Positions 32,902 through 48,169 of a stretch of DNA of 64,000 bases are shown here, piece by piece. A program made the position numbers and the translations under genes. The notes beneath the pieces were generated by a model. It was not told where the DNA came from, ran no database searches, and saw nothing but the letters and a program-made list of their open reading frames with translations. The stretch's first letter is position 1; each line of letters begins with the position of its first letter. The stretch spans positions 1 to 64,000 of the forward strand of contig CAUJGP010000002.1 in the NCBI GenBank assembly GCA_963170155.1, read 5' to 3'. Source of the stretch: Bdellovibrionota bacterium. Its GTDB lineage: Bacteria; Bdellovibrionota; Bdellovibrionia; Bdellovibrionales; Bdellovibrionaceae.

Positions 32902-33660
32902 TTATTTAAGAGTCTGCCCCTGTTGGTTTTCCAAAAGTGGCTTGATGATATCCAGAGGTAACGGAAAAATAATTGTGTTTGTCTTATCACCCGCAATCTC
33001 TGTTAAGGTTTGCAAATAAGCCAATTGCAATGCTGAAGGTGAACCTGCCAATGTCAATGAAGCCTCTTGGAGCTTTTGAGCTCTCTGCACTTCCCCTTCC
33101 GCACTAATGACTTTAGCTCGACGTTCACGCTCTGCCTCAGCCTCTCGTGCCATCGCTCTCTGCATCTCTTTCGGTAAATCAATTTGTTTGACTTCAACCA
33201 TCGTCACTTTAATTCCCCAAGCTTCTGTATGACGGTCAAGAATGTCCTGAAGAGCGGCGTTGATTCGATCTCTATGCACAAGAACTTCATCCAATTGATA
33301 TTGCCCCATGACGGAACGCAAAGTTGTTTGCGCTAACTGACTGGTTGCAAAATAGTAATTTTCAACTTTTGTAATAGCCTCCATAGGAGACATCACTTTA
33401 AAATAGACTACCGCATTGACGTGCATACTCACGTTATCCTTGGTAATGACATCCTGAGGCTGAACATCCATGGTAACAGTTCGTGTGTCTAATTTGATAA
33501 TCCGTTCAAGAAACGGAATAAGGATGATCAGACCCGGCCCTCTCACTCCCACCGCTTTTCCTAAGCGCAAAACCACTCCACGCTCCCAATCATTGAGGAT
33601 TTTAATCATCGAGGTCAAAATAATCAGTATTAAAACAGCAATCGAAATCATAAACTCCAT
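32902..33660 (-). CDS. Slipin (SPFH/Band 7, stomatin-like protein)
   Basis: A 252-aa membrane protein of the stomatin/slipin group. One N-terminal membrane segment ([20 protein letters not shown]), then the SPFH domain starting with [40 protein letters not shown], and a coiled-coil end with the [20 protein letters not shown] signature. Slipins form membrane microdomain oligomers and are paired with NfeD proteases that cleave their hydrophobic C-terminal region (here LQLAYLQTL and [10 protein letters not shown]). The nfeD gene lies upstream on the same strand, 207 bases away. Start ATG with AAGGAG six bases upstream. Confidence 0.94.
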
Positions 33661-33867
33661 AACATTCTCCTTTTATTTGGTCCGTTGATAAAAATCTTTA
33701 AGCGTATTCTTAATTCATTCTGCTTCAAATACGCTGTTATAGGGAAACCCATAACAAAATCCCGCAAAAACATCTATAGCAAATCACAACAAAAAATAAA
33801 AAGGCCCATGAATCGCTGTTGCAAGAGCAATTCATTAAGCCCCTCCCTCAGAAGCAAACCCTTATCA

Positions 33868-35169
33868 TCATTCTTTTCTGACTTTTAATATTAAACCGTG
33901 GCGCTCTATAACCCTAATGGAATCATGAATTTGAAGTTCAACATCAGAATTAAAACGCCAAATTTCTCCCAAAATCATAACCTGTCCGGAACGTCCCCCT
34001 AAATCCACCGAATGGACTTTTCCTGGAGTGCTTTTCAAATCCTCATCGGCATCTCGACTTTTGAATCGCAATGTCCGAAGAGCTAAAGCACCAATACCTA
34101 GAAAAAATAATCCCAGTACTCCTACCACAGTCAAAATAAGGGATAAAGGAAGCGTATAACCTGAAACATTTGCATCAAATAAAAACAAACTCCCAACAAA
34201 TAGTGACACAAGCCCCCCGATTCCTAATGCACCAAAGCTCGGTACAAACAACTCTGCAATCAAAAAGATAATACCCAATAAAATTAAGGCAAGTCCACCC
34301 CAAGCCACATTTAATTTATGAAAAGCTATTAAAGAGAGCACAAAACCAATGCCCCCCAACACCCCAGGAACAATCAAACCTGGATTTGAGATTTCGAGGT
34401 ACAAAAGAGCTAAGCTCCCCATAAATAACAAATACGCAAATTCAGGATCCGCAATAAAGTCTAACACTTTATATCGCATATCCTGTGGAAACTCCGTCAA
34501 GGTATGAATAGCCACTGAATGGATCTCCTGGTCTTTCATTTGCACCTTACGATGAGCGGATTGTTCTAAAAAGTCAGTTTCATTCTTTGCCAAAATATCT
34601 AAGGCTCCTATCTTATGAGCCTCTTCAGAGCTTAAAGCTTTTCCTTCAGTCACAATCTCTCTTGAAAACTTAAGATTCCGATTGCGAAGTTTAGTAATAC
34701 CCTCTAACAAGCTCACGGTGTCATTGACCATCTTATTTCTTAAATCTTCGGAAGTCTTGTCTCCAGATCCTAGCAATACGGGAGTTGCCGCGCCAAGATT
34801 GGTTGTCGGAAGCCCTCCGTTCACATGACAAGCTTGTAAAATAATCGCTCCCGCACTTCCTGCATGCCCGCCACTGGGAGTAATTAAACACAAATATGGA
34901 ACAGATGAAGCGAGAATATTTTCGATAATCAATCGAGTGCTCTGAAGACTTCCTCCGGGAGTGTTAACTCGTAAATAAATCGCCTCACACCCCAATTCTT
35001 TAGCTCTGCTTTGCGCTCGTTCGAGATAATCCAAAGTGGAAGCACTAATAACACCATTGATACTCAAACCCAGAGTGCAGGAAGCCATCCCTTTCTGAGA
35101 AAAACCAATGACAATCAGGAGACAAAAAATACAACTAAGCCATATACAATGCTTGACCCTCATGACCAT
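33868..35169 (-). CDS. NfeD-family membrane serine protease (ClpP class)
   Basis: A 433-aa long-form NfeD. Signal peptide (RVKHCIWLSCIFCLLIVIGF), then a ClpP-class serine protease domain: YLRVNTPGGSLQSTR, and SGGHAGSAGAIILQA with the nucleophile Ser in GSAG; the general-base Lys is expected in the TEGKALSSEEAHKIG region or just before. A block of four or five membrane helices follows (FAYLLFMGSLALLYLEI, GLIVPGVLGGIGFVLSLIA, GGLALILLGIIFLIAELFV), and a C-terminal OB-like NfeD domain (SGQVMILGEIWRFNS). It processes the slipin partner in studied systems. Start ATG at 35169 with GAGGTG five bases upstream. Confidence 0.93.
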   Translation of the reverse strand: MVMRVKHCIWLSCIFCLLIVIGFSQKGMASCTLGLSINGVISASTLDYLERAQSRAKELGCEAIYLRVNTPGGSLQSTRLIIENILASSVPYLCLITPSGGHAGSAGAIILQACHVNGGLPTTNLGAATPVLLGSGDKTSEDLRNKMVNDTVSLLEGITKLRNRNLKFSREIVTEGKALSSEEAHKIGALDILAKNETDFLEQSAHRKVQMKDQEIHSVAIHTLTEFPQDMRYKVLDFIADPEFAYLLFMGSLALLYLEISNPGLIVPGVLGGIGFVLSLIAFHKLNVAWGGLALILLGIIFLIAELFVPSFGALGIGGLVSLFVGSLFLFDANVSGYTLPLSLILTVVGVLGLFFLGIGALALRTLRFKSRDADEDLKSTPGKVHSVDLGGRSGQVMILGEIWRFNSDVELQIHDSIRVIERHGLILKVRKE

Positions 35170-35273: not shown

Positions 35274-35669
35274 CGTCGAAAGCTCTTTCTGCTCAACGAC
35301 AACAAGAACTCTGCAACTTTTCGCTTTAATGAGGGACCGAAATCAATTTCTTCTTCTTTGATTCGCACCTTTGAAGAATGCGCTCCTCAACCAATTGAAT
35401 AAAATAATGAAAGAAACTCTCTTATCAAGAAAACATCAAATTAAAAAATCAATTGAATCGTTCCATTTTCAAAGAAGCAAACCCTTCAGGGAAATGAACT
35501 ATCGACCGTATAAATAATAAAAATTTACTTTCTCACACCTTTGACTCTGTTAGAAACAGATGCCCAAAATATCCAGATTCACTTGTCGATCTTCTTTTTT
35601 TGGGCACAGTATTGAAACTTGAATTTCATCAGATTAAACTAGGAAGACCGCACACAAAACCAAAAAAGC

Positions 35670-35683
35670 GGAGTGCTCTGCAA
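35670..35683. repeat. Single copy of the GGAGTGCTCTGCAA element
   Basis: GGAGTGCTCTGCAA here is identical to 35961-35974, inside the long hairpin upstream of the small peptide gene. Fourteen exact bases within 300 bp are unlikely to be chance. On the minus strand this copy lies ~87 bases after the peptide gene's stop. The rest of the 35274-35769 gap shows no gene, only a loose inverted repeat (CGGAAATA/TATTTCCG, 35702-35734). Confidence 0.6.
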
Positions 35684-35769: not shown

Positions 35770-35901
35770 TTAAGTCTTACAAAGTTTAGAGATTTCAAGA
35801 ATCACTACCACCCATTTTAAAATCCAATACAGAATTATTAAAATGGCCTGTAGTTTTATCCAAAACTGCCGATCAAACGACTGTGTTTCTTTGTCGCTCA
35901 T
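35770..35901 (-). CDS. Small membrane peptide (43 aa) with a strong ribosome binding site
   Basis: Too short for usual gene finders. The minus-strand ATG at 35901 has AGGAGG five bases upstream and opens a 43-codon frame ending in TAA. The peptide has a charged start (SDKETQSFDRQFWIK), one hydrophobic segment rich in Ile, Leu, Trp and Val (LQAILIILYWILKWVVVILE) and a short ISKLCKT tail, so it should insert in the inner membrane. I know no family. It lies about 250 bases after carB on the same strand. Two hairpins sit in its leader (35911-35926 touching the ribosome binding site, and 35937-35980). Small regulatory membrane peptide or type I toxin-like peptide are both possible. Confidence 0.6.
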   Translation of the reverse strand: MSDKETQSFDRQFWIKLQAILIILYWILKWVVVILEISKLCKT

Positions 35902-35910
35902 CGGACCCTC

Positions 35911-35926
35911 CTCTCTGTGAAGAGAG
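35911..35926 (-). promoter_or_regulatory. Hairpin abutting the small peptide's ribosome binding site
   Basis: CTCTCT-GTGA-AGAGAG on the plus strand; on the mRNA strand the 3' arm AGAGAG overlaps the start of the AGAGAGGAGG Shine-Dalgarno tract. The stem could therefore reduce ribosome access. Confidence 0.4.
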
Positions 35927-35936
35927 TCGTCCTAAT

Positions 35937-35980
35937 CCAAACTTGCAGGGCACTCCAATAGGAGTGCTCTGCAAGTTTGG
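35937..35980. other. 20-bp hairpin between carB and the small peptide gene
   Basis: The arms 35937-35956 (CCAAACTTGCAGGGCACTCC) and 35961-35980 (GGAGTGCTCTGCAAGTTTGG) are complementary in 19 of 20 positions around an AATA loop. The odd pair is G-U if the plus strand is transcribed and A-C if the minus strand is. No T-run follows on either side, so it is not a standard terminator. Part of the right arm recurs at 35670-35683. Confidence 0.7.
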
Positions 35981-36151: not shown

Positions 36152-39100
36152 TTAATGGTCCTTCTGCATCGGTAATAAAGGATGAACCTCAAAAGCCTTT
36201 TCTCTCGTCTTTTTGAGTGCAATTAAAAAAGCCTCTGTAGCATCACTCTCTGTTAAACAAGGAATGCTGTAATCAATACAAGCACGACGAATATTAAAAC
36301 TTGCTTCAATGGATTGGCGGCCTGAAGTCGTATTAATCACAATACTCACTCCTCCGGATCTGATTTTATCCACACAATGGGGCCGTCCTTCATGAACTTT
36401 CTTGTATTCCACACACTCCAGCCCTTGAGATTTAAAGTACTGAGCCGTACCTCTGGTCGCAGAAAGAGTGTAGCCCATTGCTAACAAATCTTGAGCCACA
36501 AAAAGCATCTCGGACTTGTCTTTTTCTCTCAATGAAAAAAAGACCTCTCCCTTCTCCGGAAATCGCATCCAAGAAGAAAGCATCGCTTTCATCAAGGCTT
36601 CACCGTAATCACGACCACGGCCCATGCTTTCACCCGTTGATTTCATTTCAGGTCCCAAAATAGAATCAGCCTCGGGAAATTTTTTGAATGGAAAAACGAC
36701 ACCCTTCACTGACACATCCGTACGCTGGCGCCACACAAATTGATGGGATTGGATCTTAGCATCAGTCTCTCCCAACATTGCGGCAACCCCCAAATCCACC
36801 AAAGGCACACCTGTGGCTTTCACTACAAAAGGGACGGAACGGGAACTGCGAGGGTTAGCTTCCAATATGTAAATAGAGTCATCTTTAATGGCGAGTTGTA
36901 AATTCAGATGTCCAATAACACCGATTCGATGAGCCAGCTCTTGGCTCATTCTCTCCACGCGATCACAAACTTCTCGTCGCAATCTCTGAGGAGGAATCAC
37001 GCCCTGACTATCTCCAGAATGAACACCCGCGGCTTCAATATGTTCGACCACGCCGCCAACCACAACCCAGTCCACTCCTCGCACTAAATCCACGTCTACC
37101 TCTAAGGCTCCCTCCAAAAACTGATCAATCAGACAAGGACGCCGAGCGCTGATGGCCTCTTGATGGCGCTCAAAATAACTCAACAATTCATCATGATTTT
37201 CGACAACTTCCATACGCCGCCCTCCCAAAACATAGCTGGGTCGGCAAATTAAAGGATACCCAATGCGGGCCACGATCTCCTCGGCTTCTCGAAGGTTTTG
37301 CGCCATTCCTGATTCAGGAATTTTAAAGTGAAGTTCCCGACAGATTTGATTAAAACGCCCGCGGTCTTCAGCTAAATCAATCGCCTCCAAATCTGATCCC
37401 ATAATTTTAAAACCTTGTTGAACTAAACCAGGAGCACAATGAATGGGAGTCTGCCCTCCCAGCTGAACCACGACATTCTCAACACCAGCAACCCTCAAAA
37501 CTTCAGACACATGTTCTTCTGTCAAGGGTTCAAAAAACAATAAATCAGCCGTATCATAATCTGTTGAAACCGTCTCCGGGTTCGAGTTAATCATGCACAC
37601 TTCCACACCTTGCTTTTGAAAGCCCTTCACACCTCGAACGCAGCTATAATCAAATTCAATCCCCTGACCGATGCGATTGGGACCACTCCCTAAAATTGCC
37701 ACCCGACGCTCAGCCCTTGGTATTTCAGTCGGTTGAGACCAATAAGTCGAGTAATAGTAAGGCGTCGAAGACGGAAACTCCCCCGCACAGGTATCGACCT
37801 GTTGAAAACTAGGGGTGATTTTCATCTTATGTCGAAAAGCGCGGATCTCGGACTCTGTTTTTTGCATCAGACGCGCAATCAAAGCATCTGAAAATCCACG
37901 CTTCTTCGCTTGATAAATAACTTCTGTTGATAAATTTGATTTTTTAAGCCCATTTTCGAAGTCCGTCAGAGCTTTCATTTGCTCTAAAAACCAAGGAGTG
38001 ATCTGCGTGAGCTCATGAATGGCCTCTACCGTCCAGCCCTCTCGAAACGCTTGATAAACATGAAATAAACGCTGGCTGTTCGGATAAGAGATTCTTTCAT
38101 CAACCACTGTGATCTCAGGAAAGCCTTCCGCATGATGTTCAAGAGATAATACTGCTTTCATTAACGACTCTTGAAACGTTCGTCCAATCCCCATGACTTC
38201 GCCGACACTCTTCATCTGTGTGGATAAAAGATCCTTCGCTCCCGCGAATTTTTCAAAAGCAAATCGCGGAATCTTCGTCACCACATAATCCAAAGCCGGT
38301 TCATAACACGATGGAGTTGATTGAGTAATATCATTTTGAATTTCTTCCAATCGATAACCAATGGCCAACAAGGCTGCAATTTTGGCAATGGGGAATCCCG
38401 TCGCCTTCGACGCCAACGCCGAAGATCGACTCACTCGAGGGTTCATCTCAATAACCACTCGCTCTCCCGTTTGAGGGTGCACAGCAAATTGAACGTTCGC
38501 GCCCCCTGTTTGTAAACCTACTTCGTTGATGATCTTTCCGGCCTCTTCTCGCATTGCCTGATACTCTCGATCCGATAATGTCAACTGAGGTGCCACCGTA
38601 ATGCTGTCGCCAGTATGAACACCGCAAGGATCAAAGTTTTCAATCGTGCAAATAATCACAAAAGTCCCTGCGGCATCCCGCATGACCTCCAGCTCAAACT
38701 CTTTCCAGCCAAGAATGCTCTCTTCCACCAAAACTTCATGAGTGGGACTTTCATGAAGAGCTTGCACCAGCATTTTTTGATACTCTTCTGGAGAATAAGC
38801 AATACCGCCACCGCCACCGCCCAAAGTGTAATTGGGTCTTAAAATAAGAGGGTAGCCCAGTTCATCACCCACTTGAGTGCCTTGTTCGAAAGTCCGTACC
38901 AAATGACTTTTAGGATACTTAGCTCCCACTTTATCTAAAATATTCCGGAACAACTCACGATCCTCAGCGGCTTGGATCACTTTTGGATCAGCCCCTAAGA
39001 GCTGAACATTGTATTTATCTAAAATGCCCGAGCGATGAAGTTCTAATGCTAAATTGAGAGCCGTCTGCCCACCCAAAGTTGGAATTACGGCCTGGGGCCG

Positions 39101-39343
39101 CTCTTTTTCCAGGATTTTTTCAATAAAAGGGGGTTGTAAAGGTTCAATATACACTCGTGTAGCGATTTCAGGGTCTGTCATGATGGTCGCCGGATTGCTG
39201 TTTACCAGCACCACTTCCAATCCCTCTTTCATCAGAGCTTTGCAAGCTTGAGTGCCTGAATAATCGAACTCACAAGCCTGACCGATCACAATGGGTCCAC
39301 TCCCTAGAATTAAAACTTTTTTTAAATCATTTCGACGTGGCAA
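36152..39343 (-). CDS. carB: Carbamoyl-phosphate synthase large subunit
   Basis: A 1063-aa subunit that makes carbamoyl phosphate from bicarbonate, ATP and ammonia supplied by CarA. Two homologous ATP-grasp halves are visible: [20 protein letters not shown] near the start, and [20 protein letters not shown] at about residue 550, each followed by the [20 protein letters not shown] block; the oligomerisation and MGS-like allosteric domain end the protein ([23 protein letters not shown]). The open frame extends 20 codons further upstream, but the TTG at 39343 has AAGGAG six bases before it and yields the normal CarB start (PRRNDLKK), so TTG is taken as the start. Last gene of pyrB-carA-unknown-carB. 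Confidence 0.96.
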
Positions 39344-39418
39344 AGTTGACTCCTTCTCGAATACGCCCTCATAAACAACAAGATCAAATCGTGCTAACCA
39401 CAAATCATTATCGAGAAC

Positions 39419-47911: not shown

Positions 47912-48169
47912 TTAAGCTACTTTCTTCTTAAACTTCATAAAATTCTGATATTTTTTATCAAAATCTTTTGCGAATTGGCCACCGACCGTGACTAAACCCT
48001 CTTTAAACCAAGTATAATGTTCATCACAGAATCCGGCCTTCGTCGATTTACTTTTACAGCCTTCGACTTTACAACGGTCCAAACCAATAGCCACGACATT
48101 GCTCTGGTTATTCCCGCTTCCTTTTTCAACTGACTTTGGCTGTCCAACCGTTGGTTCTTTTTTACTCAT
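47912..48169 (-). CDS. Small Cys/His-containing protein (putative zinc-binding)
   Basis: An 85-aa soluble protein with a disordered N-terminus and a compact motif CKVEGCKSKSTKAGFCDEHY (C-x4-C-x9-C-x2-H), which looks like a small zinc site, followed by TWFKEGLVTVGG and a basic helical tail (YQNFMKFKKKVA). I believe similar short proteins recur in Bdellovibrio genomes but I have no named family for it. The start is well supported by GAGGAGG a few bases upstream. It stands alone between the signalling module and the unknown pair at 48.4-51.4 kb. Confidence 0.75.
   Translation of the reverse strand: MSKKEPTVGQPKSVEKGSGNNQSNVVAIGLDRCKVEGCKSKSTKAGFCDEHYTWFKEGLVTVGGQFAKDFDKKYQNFMKFKKKVA

Follow-up and report, generated by a model that had tools for sequence, protein, structure and literature searches.

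A candidate 43-residue membrane-peptide gene with a predicted closed Shine-Dalgarno sequence between carB and nfeD in a Bdellovibrionota genome

The DNA analysed here, which we call the window, is a 64,000-nucleotide stretch of a contig from a Bdellovibrionota bacterium. Its largest gap, of 982 bp, separates carB from nfeD. A preliminary description had put this gap at about 980 bases, which was borne out, and had placed within it, on the minus strand, a 43-codon ATG frame preceded by AGGAGG and encoding one strongly hydrophobic helix. Reanalysis confirmed that frame (35901-35770, with a 5-nt spacing and a highest 19-residue Kyte-Doolittle mean of 2.43). The features of the region, in window coordinates, are the following.

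32902-33660: SPFH/band-7 gene, following nfeD
33868-35169, minus strand: nfeD (full-length, NfeD1b-like), the downstream neighbour, on the same strand as the candidate
35612-35640, plus strand: weak sigma-70-like hexamer pair TTGAAA-17-TAAACT, a consensus match only
35670-35683, no strand assigned: third copy of GGAGTGCTCTGCAA, a 14-base copy of the palindrome arm, 86 bp past the stop of the candidate ORF
35770-35901, minus strand: candidate gene, a 43-codon ORF with an ATG start and a single hydrophobic helix
35804-35854, minus strand: further predicted hairpin within the ORF, with 17-nt arms (82%)
35904-35928, minus strand: predicted 10-bp hairpin sequestering the Shine-Dalgarno (SD) sequence, GACTCTCTTC-ACAGA-GAGGAGGGTC
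35907-35912, minus strand: SD sequence AGGAGG, 5 nt ahead of the ATG
35937-35980, no strand assigned: GC-rich palindrome of 20 bp, 95% complementary, with a 4-nt loop, in the presumed leader of the candidate ORF
36152-39403, minus strand: carB, the upstream neighbour, on the same strand as the candidate

The candidate ATG lies about 250 nt past the carB stop, and the candidate as a whole about 600 nt ahead of nfeD. nfeD and the SPFH/band-7 gene form a normal pair, and by Pfam a membrane pair. The junction of carB with nfeD was seen in this genome only among those examined; at the nfeD loci retrieved from relatives, the upstream sequence covered (up to 1.5 kb) never contained carB. At most family carB loci examined, a PhnD-like or ABC-transporter gene (named by eye) follows within about 150 bp, and in the closest relatives nfeD is preceded by a conserved gene (MKDYIQYL...) that is missing at this locus. 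Since carB and nfeD are adjacent only here and the relatives have different neighbours, the arrangement indicates a lineage-specific rearrangement at the gap. A second small hydrophobic ORF, possibly a chance frame, lies between nfeD and the SPFH gene (33737-33835, minus strand; 32 aa, Cys-rich, with a 5-nt SD match).

The candidate ATG is preceded on the minus strand by ...AGAGAGGAGGGTCCGATG, and the 43-residue peptide reads MSDKETQSFDRQFWIKLQAILIILYWILKWVVVILEISKLCKT. Its hydrophobic helix spans approximately residues 13-38, with a charged flank on the N-terminal side and a Lys-rich C-terminus, where Lys39 and Lys42 are found; proline and glycine are both absent. AlphaFold2, run on the single sequence, predicted one helix over residues 3-42 with a mean pLDDT of 90.7, as would be expected for a peptide of this kind, and such a model is not evidence of the peptide's production. 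The hydrophobic moment was not significant for an amphipathic helix in the peptide, and a TisB-like amphipathic helix was rejected on that basis. Within the 64-kb window we also searched for a LexA box, which we take to be TTACN3GTAA, as a sign of SOS control as in tisB; none was present, and SOS control of that type was rejected as well.

We then considered the translation start in the context of its predicted RNA structure. The AGGAGG sits in the 3' arm of the predicted 10-bp hairpin formed by GACTCTCTTC and GAGGAGGGTC; the 38-nt segment containing this hairpin has a folding energy of -14.7 kcal/mol, and 0.8% of shuffled sequences were as stable. The SD sequence is predicted to be almost fully paired, with an unpaired probability of 0.01. 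In 464 kb of the same genome, the SD sequences of 72 gene-like starts that have an SD match of 6 nt gave values of 0.04-0.93. The ribosome binding site, which had been described as excellent, is thus predicted to be closed. On the minus strand the best 150-nt window folds with a z score of -8.9. When the palindrome was left out, the ORF and SD hairpin gave a z score of -3.9 on the minus strand versus -2.6 on the plus strand. All structures at the locus are minimum-energy predictions, without covariation support; taken as such, the unusually strong folding of the minus strand fits an RNA-regulated locus, more closely than the preliminary description, which had proposed one, could show. The closure of the SD sequence, the upstream palindrome and the half-copy past the stop had gone unnoticed there.

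Searches for relatives of the peptide returned no homologue in 40 relatives, 66 genomes of the family, 144 of the class and 369 of the phylum, nor a second copy or homologue in its own genome, nor any homologue in phages, plasmids, viral contigs or a scan of some 85,000 genome contig sets. The conservation with synonymous changes that the preliminary description had named as support was thus not seen in family, class or phylum. Profiles from Pfam, NCBIfam and PADLOC gave no match to the peptide. PHROGs gave no significant match (one at E 0.16), and the PDB no natural match, only a designed protein at E 0.05. The best class-level match (E 0.008), which lies on the strand opposite a gene that looks like an HTH antitoxin, was rejected; the other matches in the own, family, class and phylum genomes (E 0.05-0.8) and those in Staphylococcus phages (E about 2) were regarded as chance. 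With the window's genome the sole member of its genus among the genomes compared and the carB-nfeD junction unique to it, this lack of homologues says little for or against a gene, and the non-conservation in close relatives that the preliminary description had named as refuting does not count cleanly against the frame. Our literature searches on Bdellovibrio found nothing that, judged by title, dealt with type I toxins or with small proteins resembling toxins.

To what extent such a frame might arise by chance was estimated in two ways. Under a first-order composition model of the carB-nfeD gap, 2% of trials produced an ATG ORF that was 40 aa or longer and had an SD match of 6 nt, and requiring a hydrophobic segment in addition, a criterion chosen after the ORF had been seen, reduced this to 0.025%. 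As an empirical yardstick, out-of-frame ORFs were counted in 464 kb of the same genome, about 409 kb of it coding; two that reached 40 aa or more and equalled the candidate in SD match and hydrophobicity were found inside genes. Scaled from this in-gene rate, the noncoding DNA of the window (8.8 kb) should contain about 0.04 comparable chance ORFs, and all the noncoding DNA sampled (55 kb) about 0.27. The candidate is therefore unusual for the 64-kb window, yet not beyond chance for the whole genome. The 464 kb contain nine intergenic ORFs that start with ATG, are 30 aa or longer and have an SD match of 6 nt; several resemble known small genes by eye, for example the exonuclease VII small subunit, and the 43-aa candidate is the only one of the nine with a hydrophobic segment. 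Its choice among synonymous codons is not gene-like, being closer to what base composition predicts than to the usage of local genes: 26% of background back-translations scored at least as high as observed, and 1.6% scored as low when judged against local gene usage.

These figures bear on a reading that is nearly as likely as that of a peptide gene locked by its own message, namely that the ORF is a chance frame in a rearranged spacer. On this account carB and nfeD were joined in this lineage, the junction DNA has been drifting, and a GA-rich hairpin arm mimics an SD sequence ahead of an AT-rich frame that happens to encode hydrophobic residues. The unique junction, the peptide without homologues, the codon choice, the roughly 0.3 comparable frames expected in the sampled noncoding DNA and the occlusion of the SD sequence in the predicted hairpin all agree with it. 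Against it, the SD sequence, spacing, length and hydrophobic segment occur together in a single 982-bp gap (model probability 0.00025, post hoc), and the unusual folding reaches the ORF side, where it is stronger on the coding strand. The ORF at 35770-35901 is a reasonable candidate and not a proven gene.

The palindrome is a few bases upstream of the SD hairpin and 171 nt past the carB stop. A 55-nt segment containing it folds at -35.1 kcal/mol (z -8.2 relative to shuffled sequences), and among the long palindromes in 464 kb of the genome it has the highest GC content. Beyond the ORF, the half-copy at 35670-35683 is, in minus-strand RNA, complementary to the 3' arm of the palindrome, with a pairing energy of -24 kcal/mol. 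Apart from this locus the 2.85-Mb genome contains no exact copy of GGAGTGCTCTGCAA, and one site with a single mismatch. Pairing of the half-copy with the leader is predicted to become possible once the palindrome's 5' arm is missing, and to take place upstream of the SD sequence, not with it. In a modelled transcript starting in the palindrome loop, 5'-3' closure had a pairing probability near 1; in a longer modelled transcript, the palindrome outcompeted this closure. Copies of the palindrome were found nowhere else in its own genome, the genome contig sets or the viral contigs, and its assignment to a repeat family or mobile element was rejected for that reason. A covariance model of the leader, built from the single sequence and run on 66 family genomes, recovered no relative; one weak match, which overlaps the 3' end of a 359-aa gene, was discarded. 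An Rfam scan gave no family above its gathering score, and the matches below it, all to eukaryotic microRNA or snoRNA families, were rejected as chance.

Could the palindrome and its half-copy be the functional element, with the ORF incidental to it? They might serve as a 3'-end or processing structure of the carB mRNA, as a structured small RNA, or, at the DNA level, as the binding site of a dimeric regulator. No other feature of the gap is as significant as the palindrome, which lies on the carB side of the gap; the half-site repeats the palindrome core, and windows over the palindrome fold nearly as strongly on the plus strand as on the minus. However, no T-run adjoins the palindrome on either strand, so that it is not a canonical intrinsic terminator and was rejected as one; no Rfam family was recognized at the locus; and the SD hairpin and ORF remain folded even when the palindrome is removed. 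We consider this explanation unlikely.

The minus strand at the locus has no convincing promoter or terminator. On the plus strand, the hexamer pair at 35612-35640 could, judging from its sequence, drive an antisense RNA that would cross the 14-base repeat at 35670-35683. Promoter-like sites in the region number 7 against 2.5 expected by chance, which is not evidence of function. Two promoter-like hexamer pairs (35541-35640, plus strand) point toward the 14-base repeat at 35670. The predicted pairing of a hypothetical plus-strand RNA with the SD sequence was no better than that of shuffled sequences, and an antisense RNA covering the SD sequence by pairing was rejected. A very improbable rival, made the least likely of all by the closed SD sequence, is an ordinary constitutive small membrane protein tied to carB or nfeD function and translated from carB read-through mRNA, its hairpins opened by ribosomes or irrelevant in vivo; the shared strand, the consensus SD sequence and the membrane pairing of NfeD with the SPFH protein downstream speak for it, but a -35 kcal/mol palindrome stands within the roughly 250 nt between the carB stop and the ATG, and no small peptide of this type adjoins carB or nfeD in the relatives examined.

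We compared the candidate with known type I systems. Membrane-associated type I toxins are shorter than 60 aa and hydrophobic, with a putative transmembrane helix and cationic residues usually near the C-terminus (PMC8309996). The candidate shares these properties (43 aa, Kyte-Doolittle mean of 2.43, one predicted helix over residues 3-42, Lys39 and Lys42), but its charged N-terminal flank is longer and it is not detectably homologous to such toxins. In these systems a small RNA, antisense or acting in trans, blocks translation of the toxin; the one hint of such an RNA here is the weak promoter-like match at 35612-35640. In aapA/IsoA of Helicobacter pylori and related messages, hairpins sequester the SD sequence and 5'-3' long-distance pairing occurs (PMC6733600). 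The candidate resembles these in its small hydrophobic-peptide ORF, in its predicted local SD-sequestering hairpins, including structure within the ORF, and in its potential 5'-3' pairing. Unlike them, it is single-copy and not conserved, its 3' element pairs with the palindrome arm and does not directly cover the SD sequence, and no sequence similarity was found by family profiles (no match in Pfam, NCBIfam or PHROGs); on these counts it does not appear to belong with aapA/IsoA.

In par/Fst a 5' stem-loop sequesters the SD sequence, a further helix lies upstream of it at the 5' end, and both RNAs run across direct repeats; the Fst/Ldr family carries a PxxxG(C) motif in the hydrophobic domain (PMC7472228). 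The candidate locus may resemble par/Fst in part: a stem-loop closing the SD sequence and an upstream helix are predicted, and a 14-bp direct repeat lies on either side of the ORF, through which a putative convergent antisense RNA could, by analogy, reach the leader and pair with it. In contrast, no shared bidirectional terminator was found at the locus, the putative convergent promoter is a weak consensus match, and the peptide lacks the PxxxG motif of Fst/Ldr. In hok/sok-type messages a 3' element folds back on the leader and keeps the message closed. The 3' element here is predicted to be able to fold back in the same manner; the peptide is unrelated, and no mok-like coupled frame was identified. 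The principle of long-distance interaction in hok/sok-type messages is cited in PMC6733600. From its sequence the candidate appears to fit no known type I toxin family, and membership fails where testable. The toxin-like shape and size noted in the preliminary description held, and no known type I family was matched. The interpretation as a small regulatory or toxin-like membrane peptide is partly supported.

The explanation we favor, tentatively and with a probability of about 0.4, is that the locus encodes a single-helix inner-membrane peptide of 43 residues, from a gene specific to this lineage, and that translation would be held off by the folding of the gene's own mRNA. According to this model the message would be made in a closed form, with its SD sequence shut in the 10-bp hairpin, and translation would begin only once the leader had been processed, melted or remodelled, whether by RNase cleavage, by a ribosome passing through or by release from an antisense RNA. 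Once made, the peptide might insert in the membrane and disturb or modulate it, as type I toxins and small regulatory membrane peptides do. The ORF, the SD sequence and its closure, the stable palindrome and the half-copy past the ORF are the computed part of the model; transcription, opening, insertion and toxicity are what we infer from them. A more specific version, which we regard as unlikely, would see in the locus a type I toxin-like module that is carried on the chromosome of a Bdellovibrionota lineage and has not been described before, with palindrome, half-copy and SD hairpin together acting as a switch. A single message could then fold in either of two ways, with the 5' palindrome intact or closed from 5' to 3', and leader processing would decide between them.

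If the peptide is made, it would provide a compact case in which mRNA folding alone controls a small membrane peptide, in a lineage from which no such genes appear to have been described, and would indicate that RNA architecture can pick out orphan peptides where sequence homology is absent. If it is not made, the locus would caution that a consensus SD in raw sequence can sit wholly inside a hairpin.

Two other features were observed in this genome. An 85-aa ORF with an AGGAGG (window positions 47912-48169, minus strand), which has no Pfam match, contains a Cys/His-rich stretch, CKVEGCKSKSTKAGFCDEHY, and looks like a small zinc-binding protein. On another contig (C24, positions 351668-351724) there is an AT-rich, near-perfect palindrome of 27 bp, the longest in the 400 kb sampled.
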